Below the pieces are notes generated by a model, which saw only the letters and a list, made by a program, of their open reading frames with translations, searched no databases and was not told where the DNA came from. Both the position numbers and the translations under genes were made by a program. This document shows positions 4,536 through 60,267 of a DNA stretch of 64,000 nucleotides, one piece after another. The first letter of the stretch is position 1. Each line of letters opens with the position of its first letter. The stretch spans positions 75,146,001 to 75,210,000 of the forward strand of contig NC_072895.1 of NCBI RefSeq assembly GCF_027943255.1, read 5' to 3'. The stretch is from Anastrepha obliqua (taxonomy: Eukaryota; Arthropoda; Insecta; Diptera; Tephritidae).

Positions 4536-6295
4536 CTAGGTTAGGTTAGGTTAGGTTGAAGCGGTTGTCCTGTATGACACACTCAGGCTCATAGCCTATT
4601 GTGATGCCGCGTGGGGAGCTTGTCCCTATCTCTCCTAAAACCAGTGTGTGTTTTTCAAAAACTATAGAACTGAGGTCTTCTATAGAACTGAGGTCTTCTA
4701 ACTCATTAAAAAATTGTCTACCCAGAATAGTAAACCTGCGGCTAGATAGAGCAGGGCAGTGGCACAGTAGGTGCGAGAGTGTCTCTTCCTCGTCCTCATC
4801 TAGACAACTTCTACAGAAGTCATGTGTTTGCACACCCATCTTTTGGGCGTGTCTACCTATTAGGCAGTGCCCCGTTATGACTGAGATCAATGTGCTAAGA
4901 CTGTATTTATTTTGGCTTAGCAGAGATTCTGTGCGTTTAGCATTTAGAGTCGGCCATAGTTGACGGGCGATTTTGCAAGTGGCTTCTTTACGCTATCTTT
5001 CGTTTGCTTTCTTTACAATTTCTTCAAGGATGAGTAGCTTACATGTTTGTAAGGGTATCCCTATGTCATTATCTATGTGCTCGTCAGACAATTTAGTGCC
5101 GAGTTTGCTAGTTCATCGGCTCTACAGTTCCCCTCAATGTCGCGATGGCCAGGAACCCATGTTACCTTTAGGTGAAATGACTCAGCCATCTCGTTAAGAG
5201 ATGTGCGGCATTTCATGGCTACCTTGGAGGTTGTCGACTGTTTTGTGAGGGATTTTATCGCCGCTTGGCGATCAGTGAAAATGTAGATATCATTTCCGGA
5301 TATCGGATCACACTGTATCAGTGTCGCGGCTTTTATTATTGCCATCAGTTCAGCGTGAAAGACACTACAGAAGTCGGGGAACCGAAAACTGAAGGAGATC
5401 CCCAGATGTCCGGAATATACACCTCCGCCCACCCTGCCCTCGAGCTTTGAGCCATCTGTGTATACATGGATGGACTCGCCCTGCCTCACGTCGTCCCGTT
5501 CCCACTCTTCCCTTGAGGGTAGGAGGGTCGTAAATGATGTAATGGCAAGTATAGGCGGGAGTGCATAGTCCACCAGTCCGGGAAGCCCCGAAGTGCCAGC
5601 CAGGATTTTACATAATCCGTGTTTGACCACTTGTTTAGAGTGTTCAGCCTTATTGCCGCACTGCGTGCGTTATATATTGCCTGCAGATCTACCGGAAGGA
5701 GGTTTAATGTCGCATATAATGCTTTCGATGGTGTGGTTGACATGGCGCCGGTTATCAGAAAAGATGCTAATCTTTGCACCTTGTCAAGTTTCTTGATGTT
5801 CACACCCTTCTGAAGGGCATCCCACCATATTACAATACCATAGTAGAGAATTGGCCTAACCTAGCCAATGTATCATTCTGGGTTCCAATCCCCATTTCTT
5901 CCCAATAAGCCTTCCGCAGGAGTACATTGCGGTCATAGCTTTACGTGCTCTGTCTGCGACTGTGAGCCCCCAATTTAGCTTCCTATCTAGTATAAGTCCT
6001 AGATATTTTGCCCTTTCTATTACTCTAAGTGGTTTACCTCCTAGGAATATTTGTTGAAGAGCAGGTGTTTTGTGTTTTCTACTAAAAAGTATCAGATCCG
6101 TTTTTTCCGGATTTACTTCTAGTCCTCGACTTTTACACCAAAGTGATAGTCTCTTGAGAGATCTTTGTTGGAGGTCACATAATGTTGGAAGGTGTTTCCC
6201 CGAGATTGCTATTACAATATCATCGGCATATGATATTATTTTACCTCCAATTTTTTCAAGTTCTTGTAGAAGATTATTGAAGATTATTACATATC
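4536..6295 (-). mobile_element. 5'-truncated LINE with RNase H and TTAGG-like tail
   Basis: A non-LTR retrotransposon lies on the minus strand, 5' end at high coordinates. Homology begins inside the reverse transcriptase just before the YADD box (near 6290), typical of 5' truncation during target-primed reverse transcription. It runs through RT thumb, RNase H and a Cys-rich tail, and ends at 4536-4557 in a short array that reads AGGTT repeats on plus and AACCT on minus. The clade looks like the LOA/I/Jockey side of the RNase H-bearing LINEs. I cannot settle which. Confidence 0.88.
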
Positions 6296-6308
6296 TATGT
6301 ATACACAT
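4546..6308 (-). pseudogene. LINE ORF2 pseudogene: RT, RNase H, Cys-rich tail
   Basis: In order along the minus strand: the RT palm end with ISYADDIVIAISGK (two of the catalytic Asp) near 6230, a thumb segment AKYLGLILDRKLNW near 6000, and a connecting segment NIKKLDKVQRLASFLITGAM near 5790. RNase H follows, with VYTDGSKLEGRVGGGVYS (first Asp, near 5470), CSVFHAELMAI (Glu), YIFTDRQAAIKSL (Asp) and VTWVPGHRDIEGNCRADELA (near 5110). A final segment has GHCLIGRHAQKMG and a C-x2-C...H-x4-C finger-like motif (CRSC...HLLCHC), ending in the tail array. Frames are broken near 5856, 5630-5800 and 5073. An 18-bp tandem duplication (4663-4680, 4681-4698) repeats EDLSSI in frame. Confidence 0.87.
4663..4698. 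repeat. 18-bp tandem duplication in LINE tail
   Basis: Two exact copies of TATAGAACTGAGGTCTTC in direct tandem within the LINE C-terminal coding region. They keep the reading frame. Confidence 0.9.
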
Positions 6309-8539: not shown

Positions 8540-9342
8540 CTAAAAATAGAACGATACACGCTTAAACAATGCATTGAAATTATTAAAATTCACAACAAAA
8601 ATGGTGACAATTCGGCAGAGACGGTTCGTAAAACTTGAACATTTTTGGTCATCGTGAAGCACCTTGTCGGACCGCAATACAGAAATTGGTGAAAAAATTC
8701 GAGCTGTTGGGACAAGTTAGTGATGTGAAGAATGAAACCCGTGCACGTCGCTCAAGAACAGCCGAAAATATTGCTGTTGTAGCCGAAAGTGTTGAAGAAA
8801 ACGCAGGTTTGTCCATTCCTCGTCGTTCTTTAGAATTAGGCATTCCACAAACGTCACTACACTGTATTTTGCATAAAGATTTCGGTTTAAGGCTTATAAA
8901 GCCCAGTTAAAACAAGAACAACGTTCTGTCTTTGCTGTTTCGGTTGTTGAAATGCATGCAAATGATCCGGAATGCCATCGAAAAATCATCTTGAGTGATG
9001 AGGCCCATTTCCACCTTGGCGGCTTCGTCAACAAGCAAAATTGTCGGATCTGGGGCTCAGAAAATCCAAGAGTTATTGTTGAAAAGCCTCTTTGCTCTCA
9101 ACGTGTGACTGTTTGGTGCGGTTTATGGTCCGGCGGAGTCAATGGACTTTACTTTTTCGAAAACGAAGCTGGATCAACAGTTACGTTGAATGGATTGCAC
9201 TATCGAGAGATGATTAACGACTTTTTATGTCCGGAATTGGATAGTATTGATTTGGTCAACGTTTATTTTCAACAAGACGGCGCTAAGTGCCACACAAGCA
9301 ACGAAACCATTGATCTTTTATCAAAATAACACCTCTTATTGG
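8540..9342 (+). pseudogene. DD41D mariner-like transposase, 5' two-thirds
   Basis: Plus-strand relic of a rosa-type (DD41D) mariner transposase. It begins near ERYTLKQCIEIIKIHNKN (8550), shifts frame near 8635, and continues through a helix-turn-helix region (SIPRRSLELGIPQTSLHCIL). After another shift near 8910 comes the catalytic domain: ILSDEAHFHLGGFVNKQNC (Asp 1), the TVWCGLWSGGVNGLYFF block and YFQQDGAKCH (Asp 2). It stops after TIDLLSK, so Asp 3 and the C terminus are absent. The break lies at the TA beside the minus-strand DD41D element at 9345. The sequence is closest to the copy at 42689-43070. Confidence 0.8.
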
Positions 9343-9778
9343 TAAACCCTGTTTTTTAGAGGTTAGGTTTTCAAGACGAAATAAAACGTATATAATTTAA
9401 TGTTATGGCCAAGAATTTAGCTTTATTATAAAGATAAGAGTTTGCCATTATGTTTTAAAAATGATTTCGGGCAAGTGGCCGCCGCGGCTGGCTCGAATAA
9501 ATTCCAGCCGAGAGGCTCAATTTTCGACCACTTTTTGCAGCAATTGGGGCCGTATGTCAGCAATAACGCGCCGAATATTCTCTTCCAAGACGTCAATCGT
9601 CTCGGGCTTATCTGCGTAGACAAGCGATTTCACATAGCCCCACAAGAAATAGTCCAGCGGTGTTATATCGCACGATCTTGGAGGCCACACCACAGGTCCA
9701 CGGCGCGAGATAATGCGCTCACCAAAAGTTTCCTTCAATAAATCGATTGTTGCGTTGGCTGTATGGCATGTAGCGCCG

Positions 9779-12700
9779 CACAGTGGTTTCTGGGCGGAAA
9801 AAATTCCAAATGATGAAAATTAACAAAAATATTTAAAAAAATTTTTTCTGAATAGCTAATTTAATGAGGTTTCTGAAAAAAAGAAATTCATTTATTTATA
9901 TGATATGTGCTGCGCAGGAAAAATCGCCAAAGTTGTACTATTGCTGGCAGCAGGTTTTTCTGAATATTTTTCATAAAAGGTTGATTAATAAGTTCCTTAG
10001 CTGGATGAACAATATTTAAAATCTTTTATGATTTTTATATTAGGTATGGATAGTACCTTAGATACCTCCAGTTATCATGGTCTTAGTAGAACATAAATCA
10101 GTTAATCGAAAGAAAATATGTAAAAGAGTATGCGATTAGGAGGTCTATAAAAAAAGCTCCACTCTTTTCCAAGCTGAGTACTATATTTTAGTATTAAGTA
10201 CATTCTGCGCAATCAGATTGATGTAAAATCAGCTGCCACCAGCTGCCACCTTGGCCGTTTGAGGTCTTTAAATGTTCGTATTAGCTCAAAATCTTGATGA
10301 AATCAATTGTGTTATGTACTGTGTAAAAGCACTTGTTGATGAAATACAAATACTGGTCGAAGTAGCATTTGGAATAATAAAAAAATGTTTTTGAGAATAA
10401 AGTCAAGGAGTTGAAATAAATGTCATTAAAAAGTGTAGCCATCGGCGAATCGCAGCGTTATCTTGGAGAGTTCGACAAATATAATTTAGCTGCCTTTATT
10501 CGAAATTAGCAAGAAAACATTCTTCTAATTGCATTTTGCTTAATTTCATATTTCATTTAAATAATTTGTTTTACAAGTATATTGTGTACTGGTTAATGAA
10601 TAAATATTTTCTATCTTATCAAAGTTTCAACCCTGACATTAATTTTTAGCTTTTTAGACAACATTTTGTAATGGGTTCAGTCTCTGATTAATGCAGTTGG
10701 ATTTACTTTGATGCCATCTTTTTTTGTGTAAGTTCATTGACATACTGCACTTACTAGGAAAATACTCGCTCCTTCTTACAAACCAAACATTCCGTAGATT
10801 CTATACGAGTATACTTATTTAAATAATTAGAATTTATTGAATTACTTTATTGAAATGGAAAATTTTTCGATTTCCTATAAAATTTTGTATAAAAAGATCA
10901 TTGATAATAATCGCGATTTTGATAAATTACAGTTATTCTTTAAAAATACTTACCCTAACGTCAGCGATTCTCAAATTCAAAAAGTTTTATTTCAAATAAA
11001 ACAGCGATTTTTACCACACTTCAATAAAAAATGGAATACTTGTAGCAGGACAAAAGCCAAATTTGAAGCTAAGTATAGTAGTTGGCTTGAAGGAGTTTTT
11101 CACTTCAATTTAGATGTAGAGTGTGCTTCTGTTTCAAAAAAAATTACAAAAAGAGTCGGTAGACCTCAAAAAAAGTTTGAGAATTGCTGTACGCGTGCTA
11201 AACGATATAAAATAAGTCAAGTTCGTTCATTATATTCCGATGAGCAAATTAAAAGTGCTGCTAAATCACGCACAAAGGCTCCAAAAATGCACCATATCGA
11301 CGCTGACAAAGCACTTGCTATATTTATACAAACGGAAATGTCGAAATACCAATACCAAGTTTTGAGACAAGGTTTAAAAAAAGAGGGCCACGACATTCTT
11401 CCTCCTTATAGTAAGATTTTGGATGCGAAGAAAAGGTGTTATCCTGAAAGCATGACAATTACAGATACTTCAGCGTCTATTGATTTACAAAAACTTATAG
11501 ACCACACAGCAAAGCGGCTGCTTCATTCGATGACTGAGGATGAAATCGCTGAAATTGACGATGAATCATTAATAATGTATTCTAAATGGGGTTGTGATGG
11601 TGCGTCTGGACAATGCGAATACAGCCAAAAACTTGGTGATAAAGAGTTATGTGATTCTAATCTATTTATGACATCAATAGTGCCATTAAATTTGTCCTGT
11701 CGAATAAACAACAACGTAGTATGGAAAAACGAACGTCCTTCTTCTACGAGATATTGTCGATGTATCCAATTTCAATTCGCAAAGGAAACCCCTGAAAAGA
11801 TTCGAGCTGAAAAAAATAGAGTAGATGCGGAAATCGCACAAATACAAGATTCAGTTGTTGATATACGAAATCGAGTTTTTAAAGTTCGGCATGAGTTTTT
11901 CTTTACAATGTTGGATGGCAAAACGGCTCAAGCTGTAACCGAAACTCCTGCATCGTCTTCTTGCTTCATATGTCTCGCAACCACATCTCAAATGAATTGC
12001 TTAGAAAAAATTAAAGCTCGGCCTATAAATCCTGAAGCTATCAAATTTGGTATGTCTCCTTTACACGCGCGTATCAAATTTATGGAATACATTTTACATA
12101 TAGCATATAACTTACCAATAATGTGCTGGAAAACGAATGCCGAAACGCGTCCAATAAAAGAAAAGCGAAAAGCACAAATTCAGATTGAATTTGCGGAGAA
12201 AACTGGACTTAGATTAGATATGGTAAAGCAAGGTAAGGGAACTACCAATGATGGCAACACATCCAGGAGATTTTTTGCCAATCCTGCGTTAGCTTCTGAA
12301 ATAACAGGTGTTAAAGAAGAAATAATTAATAGATGTGCTGTGATTTTAGAAGCAATAACCTGCACAGAACCGGTGGATAGTTGTAAATTTGATAATTATG
12401 CATATGATACTGCAAAAATGTTAGTCGCCAACTATGGATGGTATAACATGCCATCATCAGTACATAAAGTATTATTGCATGGTGAGCAAATAATTGAAAA
12501 CTGTACATTTTCTGTTGGCGCGCTTTCTGAAGAAGCTTAAGAATGTAGAAACAAGGATTATAAACGCTATCGGAATCTGCATACAAGAAAGTGTGATAGG
12601 GTTTCAACAAATGAAGATGTTATGCACATGATGCTGCTATCATCTGACCCTTTTATCAACAAATTAAGACCGACTCCAAAAAAGAAATTTCTTATTTTAA

Positions 12701-13319
12701 GTGATGAGGCAAAAAACTTGTTACGCGATATTAACAATAACGAATAAAGTAATAATGTTCGTTTTTTTCTTAAGGAATAATAATAACTTTTCATAATGAT
12801 TTTTTATTATCTTTATAAAAAAATCTTTTTAAAATAGAACACAAAAACAAAAAAATATTAGTAGTGCTAATTAACGCCATATTTACTAAAACCATTTGAA
12901 ATTAAACTTAATTTTTGAAATTATGATTTTCTTTAAACTTTTCTACTGCGACTAGATTTAGTACATAAGTTAAAACATAAAAAACAATAATGCAATTGAG
13001 TTTTATTTATTTTTAGCAATTAAACGACCTTTGGGTCACTTCAACCCTGACAAATAAGCAGTTAGAAGGGTTAACAATTTATTTTTACGAGTTTGAAATC
13101 CGTTTTTATTCTTATTCATAATAGAAAAAGGACAAGTTTTTGTAAAATATTATTTTCAATTCCGTAGTTTTTCAAAACTGTTTAGAATTTCCAAAATTTT
13201 TTCTAGTTTTAGCTTAGACATTTTATGAATTTTCAGTGTACCAATTTTCAGCTCATTCGGACTATCCGTTTGCAAGATATTGAATTGCTTCCGCTTTTCG
13301 TCGATTTAGAACCACTGTG
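9779..13319 (+). mobile_element. Complete Transib element (RAG1-like transposon)
   Basis: The element is 3541 bp. Its termini are CACAGTGGTT on the left and the complement AACCACTGTG on the right, flanked by identical CGCCG at 9774-9778 and 13320-13324. A 5-bp GC-rich target duplication and CAC-starting ends are hallmarks of Transib. The first seven bases at each end equal the consensus V(D)J recombination-signal heptamer. At the left end a 12-bp interval separates the heptamer from an A-rich AAAAAATTC. The element carries one transposase reading frame with about 1.06 kb before it and 0.57 kb after it. A 13-bp direct repeat TTCAACCCTGACA lies inside at 10626 and 13040. Confidence 0.93.
10837..12747 (+). 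pseudogene. Transib transposase (RAG1 core relative), one premature stop
   Basis: A single frame of 637 codons encodes a Transib transposase, the family from which the RAG1 core is thought to derive. It makes double-strand breaks by nicking and hairpin formation at CAC-ended termini. Visible features: an AT-hook-like GRPQKK near residue 108; first catalytic Asp in WGCDGASGQ (residue 254); second in MLDGKTAQ (360); a zinc-binding CxxC in SSCFIC (376/379); the MSPLHARIKFMEYILHIAYN block; GKGTTNDGNTSRRFF; and the VHKVLLHG segment. The third acidic residue is expected in the SEEAxExRNKDYKRYR block. A TAA at codon 568 (12538-12540) cuts the protein there, and the next codon is Glu. Downstream the frame stays open to TAA at 12745-12747. 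ATG at 10837 is the first; 10855 is an alternative. No frameshift was seen. Confidence 0.92.
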
Positions 13320-13881
13320 CGCCGTCTTGTTGGAACCAAAGGTCGTCCACATCAACATCGTCCAACTCAGGCACGAAAAAGTCATTAATCATGGCTCTAT
13401 AGCGCTCACCATTGACTGTAACATTATGGCCGGCTTCATTTTTAAAGAAATATGGACCAATGATTTCCTCTGCCCATAGAGTACACCAAACAGTGACTTT
13501 TTGAGGATGTAACGGCGTCTCAGCAATGGCTTGTGGATTATGTTCACTACAAATGCGACAATTTTGCTTATTGACATACCCATTCAACCAAAAGTGAGCT
13601 TCATCGCTGAACAAAAACCATTATTTTCGAACCGCGCGAACCGAACCATTATTTTCGTAATAAATTTGCACGATTTGCAAACGTTGTTCAGGTGTAAGTC
13701 TATTCATTATGAAATGGCAAACCAAACTGAGCATAAATCAAGTGACAGCTGTCAAAAAGACCATCTACGAAAAAAGTAGTGCCAACTTGAAAACCTAACC
13801 TCTAAAAAACACACCCTTTAGAACAATAGAATTACATCACTTCCACAAATTACTTATATATAAATATATACGAAATATGTT

Positions 13882-42688: not shown

Positions 42689-43075
42689 AAGGGTTTTCCA
42701 ATAACACGTGTTACCTATCGCTATCGAGAGATGATGAACGATTTTGTATGGCCGAAGTTGGATAGTATTGATCTGGACGACGTTTATTTTCAACAAGACG
42801 GCGCTACGTGCCACACACAAGAACGAAACCATTGATCTTTTACGGGAAGTCGCACTCTCGAAGAGGTGATCACAATTTGCCACCGAGATCTTCTGATTTA
42901 ACACCTTGAGACTTTTTCTTTGGGGACACGAGAAAGAGAATGTCTACGCCAACAGCCCAGGATCGATTCAAGACCTCAAAGAAGGAATTCGTGAGGCTAT
43001 CGAGGACATGGCATCCACTTTGCAATTCGGTTATGGAAATTTTTAAGAAAAGGATATTGTCCTGTAAGCGTGGTC
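42689..43075 (+). pseudogene. DD41D mariner-like copy, internally deleted
   Basis: The left end AAGGGTTTTCCAATAACACG follows TA at 42687-42688, and within 30 bp the sequence jumps to YREMMNDFVWPKLDSIDLDD then VYFQQDGATCHT (Asp 2). After several frame breaks come an equivalent of PPRSSDLTPxDFFLWG (near 42890-42925), NVYANSPGSIQDLKEGIREA and a C terminus KRILSCKRGRGG near 43075. Closest to the copy at 8540-9342. The 3' inverted repeat is replaced by a SINE insertion. Confidence 0.78.
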
Positions 43076-52559: not shown

Positions 52560-54270
52560 TGCAATCAAACACTTTTAAAGTAATTATAGACTTGTGCCCT
52601 GAAGTTAAATCTGTTAAGTCCAGCCTTCACAGTGTCGGGTAATGAGTTCCACACTTTAACAGCGCTAATGAAAAATAATCTAGATGATGGTGTGTAATTA
52701 AATTTTGGAACGATGAATTTGTTGTGTCTGCGAGACCTTACTGGTATCAACTTCTCTGTCAGATAGGGAGGAGACTTGAATAATGTAAGTTTGCACAAAA
52801 AAATGCAATTTCTAGCCGACAAATAACTGTTAAGGCAACAGCCCAGTAACCTTGATCGCCATGCAGAGATTTGGTCGTATCTGCCAATCCCATATACATA
52901 GGTACATACCGCGTAGCGTTATTAAATGCCACATTAAGTTTGTGGCAAGATGTGGAGTCGAGTTTGCTGTATACCACCTCAGAGTACGTAATGAGAAGCA
53001 TAATTAGCTGGAGAACTAATTTGCGCCTCGTTTTCTCTGGCTTGAATGCTGCAGAGACTCTCAGCTTACGCAATGTAGCATAAATGTTCCCCACAACCCT
53101 ATTTATATGGTCAGCACAGGTAAGTTTTGTGTTGAGAATAAACCCCAAATTTTTTACCTTATCCATAAAGGTAAGGGAACTTGTACCTATCCATAATTTA
53201 GGGATATTGTCAACATGCACAACACTATTACATATAGGTAAGACATATGACTTTGACGCGTTCAGACATAAAGAGTTTTCATTAGCCCATACAGAAATAG
53301 CAGACAAATCACTGTTTATTTTGAAACATAAATCTTCAACGAGACCAATACGACTGGACAAGTACAATTGTATATCATCAGCATACGCATGGACATTCAC
53401 ATACTGACCAACGTTAAAAACATGATTGACAAAAAGACTGAATAAAAGCGGACCAAGGATAGACCCTTGCGGAACACCAGTGTGAGACTGAGATGTTGAT
53501 TTACTGGTCTTGACCTTCTGCGTTCTGTCTCCAAGGAAGCTGGCCATGAGCTTCACCGCACTGTCTTTGAAGCCGAAATAGTGTTTAAGCTTCAAACATA
53601 ACAATTTGTGATTCACTGAGTCAAATGCTTTAGAAAAGTCAAGTAAGCAAAGTAGAGTCAAGTCTCCGTGGTCAAAACTAATTCTAATTTCGTCCAGTAT
53701 TTTAACCATTGCAGTCGAGCAACTGTGATTTTGTTTGAAGCCAGATTGTAGTGGAGAGAGTAGACGATTGTTCTGTACAAATGATGAAATTTCCGTGGCC
53801 ATCAAGTTTTCGCAAACTTTGGAAAATGTGGGCACTATGCTGATAGGTCTATAGTCACCAGCATAAATAGCATTTGCCTTTTTTGCTACTGGGAAAACTA
53901 TAGCCTTTTTCCATCCTGCTGGGAAACATGAACTAGTCAAGCAATGGTTTATTATATGGGTAAGGGGTCCCATTATATGTTGGATGACTATACGGACGAA
54001 TTTTTACGAGATACCATCGTCGCCTACAGCATTAGACTTTATTTTGGATAACGCTTTCAGGACATCTACCTCACTAACTGTCATAAATTGAAACTGTTCT
54101 TTTAGAGTAGCACAAGGTGAGGACTCTTTTAAATAGGAGCACAGTTTGTTTTCTTACCAACACTAATGAAGTAGTCATTAAGTTCATCAAGGTCAATCTC
54201 ACATTCGGGACTTCCCTTGCCATGAGTTTTAAATTTTTGACGTGATAACGTCTTATAATTCGATTTAGCC
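52560..54270 (-). mobile_element. 5'-truncated LINE (CR1/L2-like group)
   Basis: A non-LTR element on the minus strand. Coding homology runs from about 54270 (DELNDYFISVGK region, just before the RT) to a stop near 52565, with no RNase H after the RT. The endonuclease is missing, so the copy is 5'-truncated. The 3' boundary is uncertain; a pyrimidine-rich run (minus strand) lies at 52450-52510. Confidence 0.82.
52565..54190 (-). pseudogene. LINE reverse transcriptase, near-intact core
   Basis: From the 5' side: a pre-RT segment with VSEVDVLKALSKIKSNAVGD then a TAA at about 54008-54010. An uninterrupted 404-codon frame (53973-52759) follows: GDYRPISIVPTFSKVCENLM (motif 2), LLSPLQSGFKQNHSCSTAMV, LLCLLDFSKAFDSVNH (motif A with catalytic Asp), GVPQGSILGPLLFSLFVNHV (motif B), VHAYADDIQLYLS (motif C) and VKNLGFILNTKL (motif E). 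A frameshift near 52815 leads to the C-terminal block PPYLTEKLIPVRSRRHNKFI and VWNSLPDTVKAGL. The motif set matches CR1/L2/Daphne-group LINEs. The RT catalytic residues are all present. Confidence 0.85.
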
Positions 54271-57924: not shown

Positions 57925-60267
57925 TCTATATATATAAAAGAAAGTCATGTTAGTTACACTATTTATAACTCGAGAGCGGCTGAACCGATTTGGCTGAAAA
58001 TTGATGGAGAGGTAGCTTAGAACCAGGAGACGGACAGAGGATACTTTTTATCCCATTCGAACGCGTTTCCGTGAAGTCACTATAAAATGTGGTATAACAA
58101 AAACGCATCTGATATGAAATAACAAAACGCAAATGGCAGCTAAACGTAATTTTGTCTATGGTTAAGTAGACAATTTGATAATATTATATTATTACACTTC
58201 ATGCTTCATCGAAGAATTTTCAACGACGGAAGCAAGGTGATACGGTAACTGGCTATCCGGATGTGCGTTCTACTGATGCTCTTGGTCGTATGTATACAGT
58301 TCATCCAAAGAATGTTGAATGCTTCTATTTGCGGTTGTTGCTGGTAAATGTGCATGGGCCAAGGTCATTTGAGTCACTACGGACTGTTAATGGTACAATA
58401 TTCCCAACATATCGTGCTGCATGTGAAGAACCCAATTTACTAGAAAACGATACCCATTGGGATACGACAATCGTTGAAGCCATTATCTCTGCATCTCCAA
58501 GTGAGATACGCACATTATTTGCTATCATCATTTCGACATACTTTCCATCGAACCCATCTAACCTATGGCATAAATACAAGGATAATATGTCAGAAGATAT
58601 TTTACAACAAATTCGTGTCAGTTCCAGAAATTCGGATCTTGAGATGGATGAGGAGATACATAATCGGGCTTTACTCTTGATCGAAGACATGTGTTACCTT
58701 ATGTGCGGTAGTTTATTAGTCAGGTTAGGAATGCCAGCGCCAAATCGTGAAATGAATGACGCATTTAATCGAGAGTTGGAACGGGAACGTGAATATGATT
58801 CCTGGTGATCATTAGATTTAGTAGTTCAAACGAATGTACCACTGTTGAATCGCTAACAAAAATAAGTTTATGATACATTAATGAAGGCAATTGATGATGG
58901 AAATAGTGGTTTATATTTCCTTGATGCCCCTGGTAGAACTGGTAAGACATTTCTCATATCAGCAATTTTAGCCACTGTTCGTGCGAGATCCAGCATTGCG
59001 CTTGCAGTTGCTTCTTCTGGAATAGCAGCCACATTGTTAGAAGGATGCCGTACGGCTCATTCAGCATTAAAATTGCTGTTAAATCTTCAAAAAATTGAAG
59101 AACCAACATGTCATATTTCAAAAAACTCAGCAATGGCCAAAGTTTTATCAGCATCGAAAATCATCATCTGGGACGAATGCACAATGGCGCATAAACGTGC
59201 ATTAGAAGCACTTAACCGAACATTGAAAGATATACGCACTGACTCGAGATGTTTTGGAGGCGCAATGATTTTACTGTCTAGCGACTTCTGCCAAACACTG
59301 CCAGTAATTCCAAGATAAACGGCTGCTGACGGAATAAACGCTTGCCTCAAATCATCGAATCTATGGCGCTATGTGAAGAAACTACAGCTGACAACAAACA
59401 TGAGAGTTGCATTACGTAATGATACATCTACTGGAGATTTCTCTGAGCAATTACTGACTATCGGTAATTGTCGAGTACCTTTCGACGAATTGAGCGGATT
59501 GATTTCATTTCCTCAGAATTTCTGTAACTTTGTCTCTCTCATTAATAACTAGAAAAATAATGAATGGTTGAGTGAGCGAGCAATTTTAACGGCTAAGAAT
59601 AAAGATGTAGATGACCTAAACTACATAATTCAAAACAATATCATTGGAACAATGCAATCATTCAAATCCATTGACTGTGTAACAATTGAAGATGAAGCCA
59701 CTAACTATCCAATTGAATTTTTAAACTCCTTGGATGTGCCTGGCTTACCACCAATCATGCTTCGAAACATAAGCCCACCAAAACTTTGCAACGGTACACG
59801 TTTGGTGGTAAATAAATTGATGAACAATGTGATTTACGCGACGATACTTAACGGAAAATTCGAGGTGAAGAAGTTCTCATTCCGAGGATCCCGAGGATCC
59901 CAACCGATCTTCCGTTTGAGTTTAAAAGACTTAAATTTCCGATCTGTCTTGCATTCGCCATGACCACTAACAAATCACAAGGCCAATCCTTGAAAGTTTG
60001 TGGTCTGAATCTAGAAAATCAATGTCACCAATCTCACATGGTCAATCATATGTGGCATGTTCACGGGTCGGAAAAGTATCTGTGTTGTTTGTTCTTGCAC
60101 CTGATAATAAAACGAAAAATGTCGTGTATCAGAAGGTGCTTACCTGAAGAGCGCAATCTATTAAAGCTTCATTGAAATACCTGATTAATAAAAAAATTAA
60201 CTTAATAAAATCAAAGCTCTGTTTTTTATTGCCTCTAGGGCGGAACAAAGTTCGCCGGGTTAGCTAG
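57925..60267 (+). mobile_element. Helitron with both termini, Rep region deleted
   Basis: The 5' end begins TC followed by TATATATATAAAAG and is preceded by A (57924). The 3' end is CTAG (60264-60267) followed by T, preceded by a short hairpin GGCGGAAC-AAA-GTTCGCC at about 60239-60256. TC...CTRR ends, a near-terminal hairpin, insertion between A and T and no target duplication define Helitrons. The 5' region (ACTCGAGAGCGGCTGAACCG near 57967-57986) is the conserved leader I associate with an abundant insect Helitron family. 2343 bp, against well over 5 kb for autonomous copies. Confidence 0.92.
58220..60175 (+). pseudogene. Helitron RepHel C-terminal half (Pif1-like helicase), broken
   Basis: Coding homology starts near 58220, in the region between Rep and helicase: GRMYTVHPKNVECFYLRLLL and MSEDILQQIRVSSRN. 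A stop at 58806 and a frame change follow. The helicase has a Walker A motif DAPGRTGKT (58920-58950), where the family has GGTGKT, then SSGIAATLLEGCRTAHSALK, Walker B IIIWDECTMAHK and LLSSDFCQTLPVIPR. Stops lie near 59318 and 59550. Later motifs are NGTRLVVNKLMNNVIYATIL and MTTNKSQGQSLKVCGLNL, ending near 60175. The HUH nuclease domain needed for rolling-circle initiation is absent. Confidence 0.88.

Follow-up and report, generated by a model that had tools for sequence, protein, structure and literature searches.

A young Transib family in Anastrepha obliqua with two-part ends spaced at 12 and 22 bp

The 64,000-nucleotide stretch of the Anastrepha obliqua genome analyzed here (assembly GCF_027943255.1, contig NC_072895.1, positions 75,146,001 to 75,210,000 of the forward strand; referred to below as the window) carries at 9779..13319 a copy of a young, recently mobile family of Transib transposons. 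With a probability of about 0.85, we interpret this family as a young cut-and-paste Transib with a RAG1-type transposase core and two-part ends, in which an A-rich block follows the terminal heptamer CACAGTG after 12 bp on the left and after 22 bp on the right, and in which the gene of the window copy is broken.

The element begins with CACAGTGGTT at 9779 and terminates with AACCACTGTG at 13319 (inverted pair I10), the left heptamer occupying 9779..9785 on the plus strand and the right one 13313..13319 on the minus strand. CGCCG was read at both flanks (9774..9778 and 13320..13324) as the target site duplication. Exact copies of CACAGTGGTT were present at only two sites in the window, both of them element ends, and the terminal match is far beyond chance because identical ends recur across the host genome. 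Searching this genome (836 Mb in 204 contigs) with the left 212 and the right 212 bases of the element yielded, for the left end, 28 copies (98-100%) and a single diverged relative, as well as the right ends of 27 copies (94-100%) and three diverged ones at 73-83%; the right end of one copy, L032, was not found by the right-end query. Many of the 27 copies other than the window copy (L009-L035) contain internal deletions or insertions. The left heptamer was CACAGTG in all 28 copies, and the right heptamer was CACAGTG in 26 of the 27 copies and CACAATG in the remaining one. Both the coordinates and the 28-copy family confirm the terminal heptamers and identical CGCCG flanks put forward in the original prediction. 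Among the 17 full-length copies the mean pairwise difference was 0.86%, and they differed by 0.44% from the majority sequence. A full open transposase frame was retained in two copies and absent from the other 26.

The 5-bp duplications were identical in all 27 copies with both ends (24 in fetched stretches and three for which the right end was fetched later). They consisted of CGCCG (12 copies), CGGCG (seven), CGTCG (two) and CGACG (one), with CGGCA, CAACG, TGGCG, CGATA and CACCG found once each. The pattern CGNCG accounted for 22 of the 27 duplications, compared with 0.16% of the 5-mers in the window, which substantiates the proposed 5-bp GC-rich duplication. The window copy interrupts the QQDGA codons of a mariner-like transposase gene, and frames and copy comparison place the pieces of this split gene at 9529..9778 (minus strand) and 13320..13574. 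When joined with one CGCCG, the flanks matched L050:6323-6822 across the junction at equal length (96.6% over 500 bases, with a single CGCCG) and aligned without gaps to two diverged copies on the minus strand of the window, at 9028..9314 (69%) and 42719..42817 (77%). The search for empty sites that had been suggested earlier was partly successful in that uninterrupted sites with a single CGCCG exist, but these are other mariner-like copies and not an empty allele of the locus. Copy L010 occupies the same mariner position; its flanks differ from those of the window copy at 25 of 530 bases and the elements at 27 of 3521 (p 7e-10). Because the flanks diverge more than the elements, L010 and the window copy appear to have inserted independently at this target.

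An asymmetry in the bases flanking the target, which could depart from the published palindrome rule, was considered and is not claimed. The base after the duplication was T at 22 of the 27 sites and the base before it A at 12 (p 0.010), or 20 and 12 of 25 after two repeat sites were dropped (p 0.038). At 24 copies the counts had been 21 versus 10 (p 0.002), and for 22 copies without repeats the p value was 0.010 and that of the paired test 0.035; the signal was weak and faded as copies were added.

The transposase gene, recognized by homology, spans 10855..12540 (plus strand) and comprises 561 codons followed by an in-frame TAA (12538..12540). The remainder of the frame (12541..12747, plus strand; 68 codons and a stop) is severed by this TAA, and its first codon is the Glu that aligns with the catalytic Glu of the relatives. 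The description of the element as complete therefore holds for its two intact ends but not for its transposase frame, from which the last 68 codons are cut off. In the open copies the protein has 630 residues, and its closest relative by both sequence and predicted fold was HzTransib, far ahead of RAG1 and RAG1L, which bears out the earlier assignment to Transib with a RAG1-type core; the fold search spanned mainly residues 144-609. D248, D354 and E563 of the two open copies are in line with the triads of HzTransib and RAG1, the latter of which we take to be D600, D708 and E962 (E962 fits the positions in the alignment to the 1040-residue RAG1 chain). The window copy retains both catalytic Asp codons (D248 at 11596..11598 and D354 at 11914..11916, plus strand). 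With a frame that ends one codon short of the catalytic Glu, it is predicted to be unable to make an active enzyme; with two intact ends, it remains a possible substrate for transposase supplied in trans. Both open copies deviate from the relatives, each in at least one otherwise conserved column, which leaves their activity uncertain, and a third copy, L027, is free of stops from codon 4 onward.

The N-terminal part carries a GRP motif (residues 102-104, 11158..11166, plus strand) that is collinear with KGGRPR of RAG1, the GGRPR stretch of which presumably belongs to the nonamer-binding domain; taken alone this match is weak (i-Evalue about 0.4, conditional 2e-6). The solved HzTransib chain (PDB 6pqn, 6pqr, 6pqu, 6pqx, 6pqy and 6pr5) begins approximately where residue 145 aligns (entry number 21) and leaves the N-terminal 144 residues, which bear the GRP motif, without a counterpart. 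HzTransib is described in the excerpted text of PMC6941560 as cleaving via a hairpin route with a RAG1-type triad of D126, D225 and E436, with which D248, D354 and E563 align; the offset between its chain index and entry numbers was obtained by arithmetic from the alignments. Neither of the two transposase pieces matched a Pfam family at E values up to 0.1, and PF26100 is carried by many database relatives of the transposase. Searches for relatives among viral contigs returned nothing, and those among genome contigs from elsewhere returned 14 pattern matches and no relatives.

The two ends share more than the heptamer. On the left, CACAGTG is followed by a 12-bp spacer (9786..9797, plus strand) whose last four bases (9794..9797) are GCGG, and then by the A-rich block AAAAAATTC (9798..9806, plus strand), which was identical in 26 of the 28 copies. 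On the right, read inward, CACAGTG is followed by a 22-bp spacer (13291..13312, minus strand) that likewise ends in GCGG (13291..13294; 27 of 27 copies) and then by the block AAACAATTC in 26 of 27 copies according to the copy alignment, the window copy having AAGCAATTC at 13282..13290 (minus strand). The right end had been thought to lack an equally good second motif; instead, the same block is present there, 10 bp further in than on the left. In ungapped comparisons of the first 55 bases of both ends at offsets of up to 30, with dinucleotide shuffles as null, the best offset was +10, and its score was reached by 10 of 500 shuffles for the window copy (11 of 400 in a repeat run) and by 6 of 2000 for copy L011.

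The ends invite comparison with the recombination signal sequences (RSSs) of V(D)J (variable, diversity, joining) recombination, in which the heptamer is followed by the nonamer ACAAAAACC at 12 or 23 bp. The window family has the heptamer and one short and one long spacer (12/22, and 12/23 in the related family B), and a different A-rich block stands in the place of the nonamer. For the window copy, the match to ACAAAAACC was 6/9 at 12 bp on the left and 4/9 at both 22 and 23 bp on the right, while 7/9 was attained at a spacer of 37 on the left and of 11 on the right. The A-rich 9-mer noticed earlier at 12 bp behind the left heptamer is real, but its likeness to the vertebrate nonamer is not particular, being matched or exceeded at other spacings. 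A closer nonamer match was found in another family of this genome, family E, whose right end reads ACAAAAATC at 24 bp (8/9).

Comparison with family B, whose transposase is 50% identical in copy L037, revealed a conserved segment at the position of the block. At the left end, L037 and the window family agreed at 7/7 bases of the heptamer, 2/8 of positions 8-15, 12/13 of positions 16-28 and 17/42 of positions 29-70, the chance of 12/13 given this background being about 1.6e-4. For a second family B copy, L041, the corresponding values were 6/7, 3/8, 11/13 and 17/42, and the block itself was kept at 8/9 in L037 and 7/9 in L041. The right end agreed with family B at 6/7 bases of the heptamer, 9/13 of the block region and 12/42 behind the block. 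The proposed test of whether the A-rich block is conserved was mostly favorable in this comparison, in which GCGG and the block were kept, but it did not discriminate for the closer relative L036 (C2:112024941, left end at 69%), where TGCCG precedes CACAGTG, the block AAGAAATTC lies at 12 bp (8/9), and GCGG agreed at only 1/4 bases but positions 29-70 at 31/42. No matching right end of L036 was present within the 4 kb fetched.

The genome is rich in Transibs, with at least 74 and at least 91 protein matches in two overlapping searches that included many families, several of which have stop-free open frames of about 650-690 residues. From 20 divergent loci we obtained 12 with both ends, for which matching duplications were required by the script and are not independent evidence; L039, L040, L042, L044, L048, L052, L054 and L056 were left out for want of a matching end pair, some being single-ended, and a further family (L065/L066) yielded no ends. 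One copy per family was then compared for the spacing offset in eight families, including the window family (A), again over the first 55 bases and offsets of up to 30. Family B (L037, L038, L041) has ends of the form CACASTG-12-AARAAAGTC and CACACTG-23-AAAAAAGTA with an offset of +11, a score that none of 500 shuffles reached for L037 and 14 of 500 reached for L041. Family G (L050, L051), with CCAAAAATC at 14 and CCAAAAATA at 24 bp, had an offset of +10 (6 of 500), as did family E (L045, L046), for which 175 of 500 shuffles did as well and the result is not significant alone. Families F and I were symmetric with an offset of 0, and family K, represented by one copy (L063/L064), was symmetric with CACATAC-23-ACAAAAGTC and CACATAG-23-ACAAAAGTA. 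Four of the eight families had a best offset of +10 or +11; under shuffles, the probability of four or more is 6.3e-5. The heptamers of other families in this genome included CACTGTG, CACACTG and CACATAC/G, and the reading of an exact CACAGTG as a general mark is not supported.

Several further features of these families were recorded. A link between the GRP motif and asymmetric ends was ruled out, as the symmetric family F has GRP too. By eye, the stretch between GRP/GRK and the core appeared longer in families F and I and shorter in A, B, E and G (six families, using the N-terminal frames of L047 and L053), a pattern that raised the idea of a shorter stretch accompanying asymmetric ends. The transposase of family B copy L037 (C5:2753377-2755254) is 89.8% identical over 625 residues to protein P0005 of the moth Heliothis virescens, a likeness that, given the fly host, would suggest horizontal transfer across insect orders. 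The 23/23 ends of family K and the right end of family B have the block end AAAAGTC/AAAAGTA in common. The left end of family B resembles such an end minus 11 bp of spacer, and this comparison of sequences points to one way in which symmetric ends might have become 12/23 ends.

We propose that the transposase would nick the outer edge of CACAGTG and form a hairpin on the flank and a blunt transposon end, as homology to HzTransib and RAG suggests, and that the two ends would then join the target 5 bp apart, into CGNCG. Each end would be two-part, with the heptamer for cleavage and the GCGG-AAAnAATTC block as a putative second binding site. The distance from heptamer to block, 12 bp on the left and 22 bp on the right, gives the two ends a difference of one helical turn, like that between 12- and 23-RSSs, and this difference may let the complex tell the ends apart and favor short/long pairing. 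A more far-reaching version, which we offer tentatively and consider possible without favoring it, is that these Transibs already obey a 12/23-type rule in which the GRP segment, as a RAG1-like nonamer-binding segment, reads the block and assembly is most efficient when a short (12) end is combined with a long (22-23) one. If this is true, the 12/23 rule of antibody genes descends from single-gene Transibs that had no RAG2, and the change from symmetric 23/23 ends to 12/23 ends, through loss of one helical turn from the left spacer, can be traced among the families of a single genome.

A number of observations weigh against a functional role of the block and its spacing. L036 keeps the left block without GCGG, the diverged right end L062 keeps the right block (AAAGAATTC at 22 bp, 8/9) without GCGG, the right end L060 has GCGG but matches the block at only 5/9 (CACAAATTT at 22 bp), and in a further diverged right end, L061, the heptamer was not seen. 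In these diverged relatives the spacing is unchanged, but their closeness or small number keeps them from demonstrating selection. Family D (L043) had an offset of +17 that was not significant (98 of 500 shuffles), and the symmetric families F, I and K in the same genome indicate that Transibs in general do not need asymmetry. HzTransib itself has symmetric ends with little or no similarity to the nonamer according to the excerpted text of PMC8289069. When left ends were paired with the right ends of other families, +10/+11 arose in at least 5 of 56 pairs compared with about 3% in shuffles; the shuffle null is thus liberal, and at the cross-family rate (about three times that of shuffles) the chance of four in eight would rise to about 0.003. 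In the tree, A groups with B in a supported clade of four rows and E falls with D and G in a second clade, and because of this grouping the asymmetric families represent two clades and not four independent cases.

Several of these points would be expected if the element were an ordinary Transib that needs no more of its ends than the heptamer and the first ten bases, the A-rich block being a chance repetition of AT-rich background. The element is indeed AT-rich, its nonamer match is unremarkable, and both the HzTransib ends and the cross-family pairs fit such a background. The repeated block, however, contains GCGG and not A alone, the left/right match was rarely reached by shuffles, positions 16-28 are kept with family B between two unconserved stretches, and the +10/+11 offset recurs in four of eight families; we consider chance repetition rather unlikely, if still deserving of some weight. 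Less probable again is that the block serves a transcription or host factor near the promoter, outside recognition by the transposase. The left end does lie about 1.1 kb upstream of the gene, and the ends of ProtoRAG are reported to bind a host YY1-like factor (PMC7481187, excerpted text), but here the block also lies downstream of the gene, occurring at each end at a fixed distance from the heptamer, and it does so in several families.

The CACAGTG heptamer, 5-bp duplications and RAG1-type core would equally suit a RAG-like (RAG1L-RAG2L) transposon. This identity has next to no likelihood for an element of only about 3.5 kb in which no frame besides the transposase exceeds 94 codons and no convergent RAG2-like gene is present, and whose nearest relative is HzTransib. 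RAG1 is a domesticated relative, a precedent for regarding the locus as a domesticated or host-used recombinase. We give this almost no credence, as the family consists of 28 dispersed copies with fresh duplications, 26 of them without a full open frame, and the window copy, cut off before its catalytic Glu, sits inside a mariner-like element.

Elsewhere in the window, reading of the frames indicated a reverse transcriptase-like frame at 52759..53973, an RNase H/reverse transcriptase-like pair at 5073..6308 and a Helitron/Pif1-helicase-like stretch at 58263..59963, and several further frames look mariner/Tc1-like.

The original report of the kinship between Transib and RAG1 and of RSS-like Transib ends is reportedly that of Kapitonov and Jurka in 2005. 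Both were already known, as cited in excerpts of PMC7204232, PMC4411706 and PMC8355894. Like V(D)J RSSs, the window family has the exact CACAGTG and an A-rich block whose distance from it is 12 bp at one end and one turn more at the opposite end; it differs in that the block is AAAAAATTC / AAACAATTC and not ACAAAAACC, the longer spacer is 22 and not 23 bp, and there is no RAG2-like gene. In part of PMC11844651, the target site given for the mouse RAG strand transfer complex is CGCCG, identical to the duplication of the window copy. Like the window family, the Drosophila melanogaster Transibs hopper and transib2 make 5-bp duplications and use a short palindromic target motif, which is CCANTGG (PMC3276498, in part) compared with CGNCG here; the sequenced copies of families D and G in this genome have CAATG or CAGTG. 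Most Transib families have symmetric ends according to the excerpt of PMC8289069, and that of PMC8355894 describes symmetric 20-22-bp ends in some Transibs and asymmetric 12/23 (+/-1) ends in Transib5 of D. melanogaster and Transib2/N1/N2/N3 of Anopheles gambiae, reportedly first described by Kapitonov and Jurka in 2005. Compared by description and not by sequence, these asymmetric families have the same two-part ends with a short and a long spacer, and the families described here add an offset of 10 bp (window family) or 11 bp (family B) with a block common to both ends. Among the literature matches listed, none described the window family or offsets clustering at one helical turn, and we make no claim of absence from print. 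The element is of an ordinary kind, a member of a new Transib family, and its genome holds young natural transposon ends of both the 12/22 and the 12/23 type. A family 0.44% diverged from its majority sequence, with two of 28 copies open and 12/22 ends, beside 12/23 and symmetric 23/23 families, constitutes a natural set for probing the origin of the 12/23 rule.

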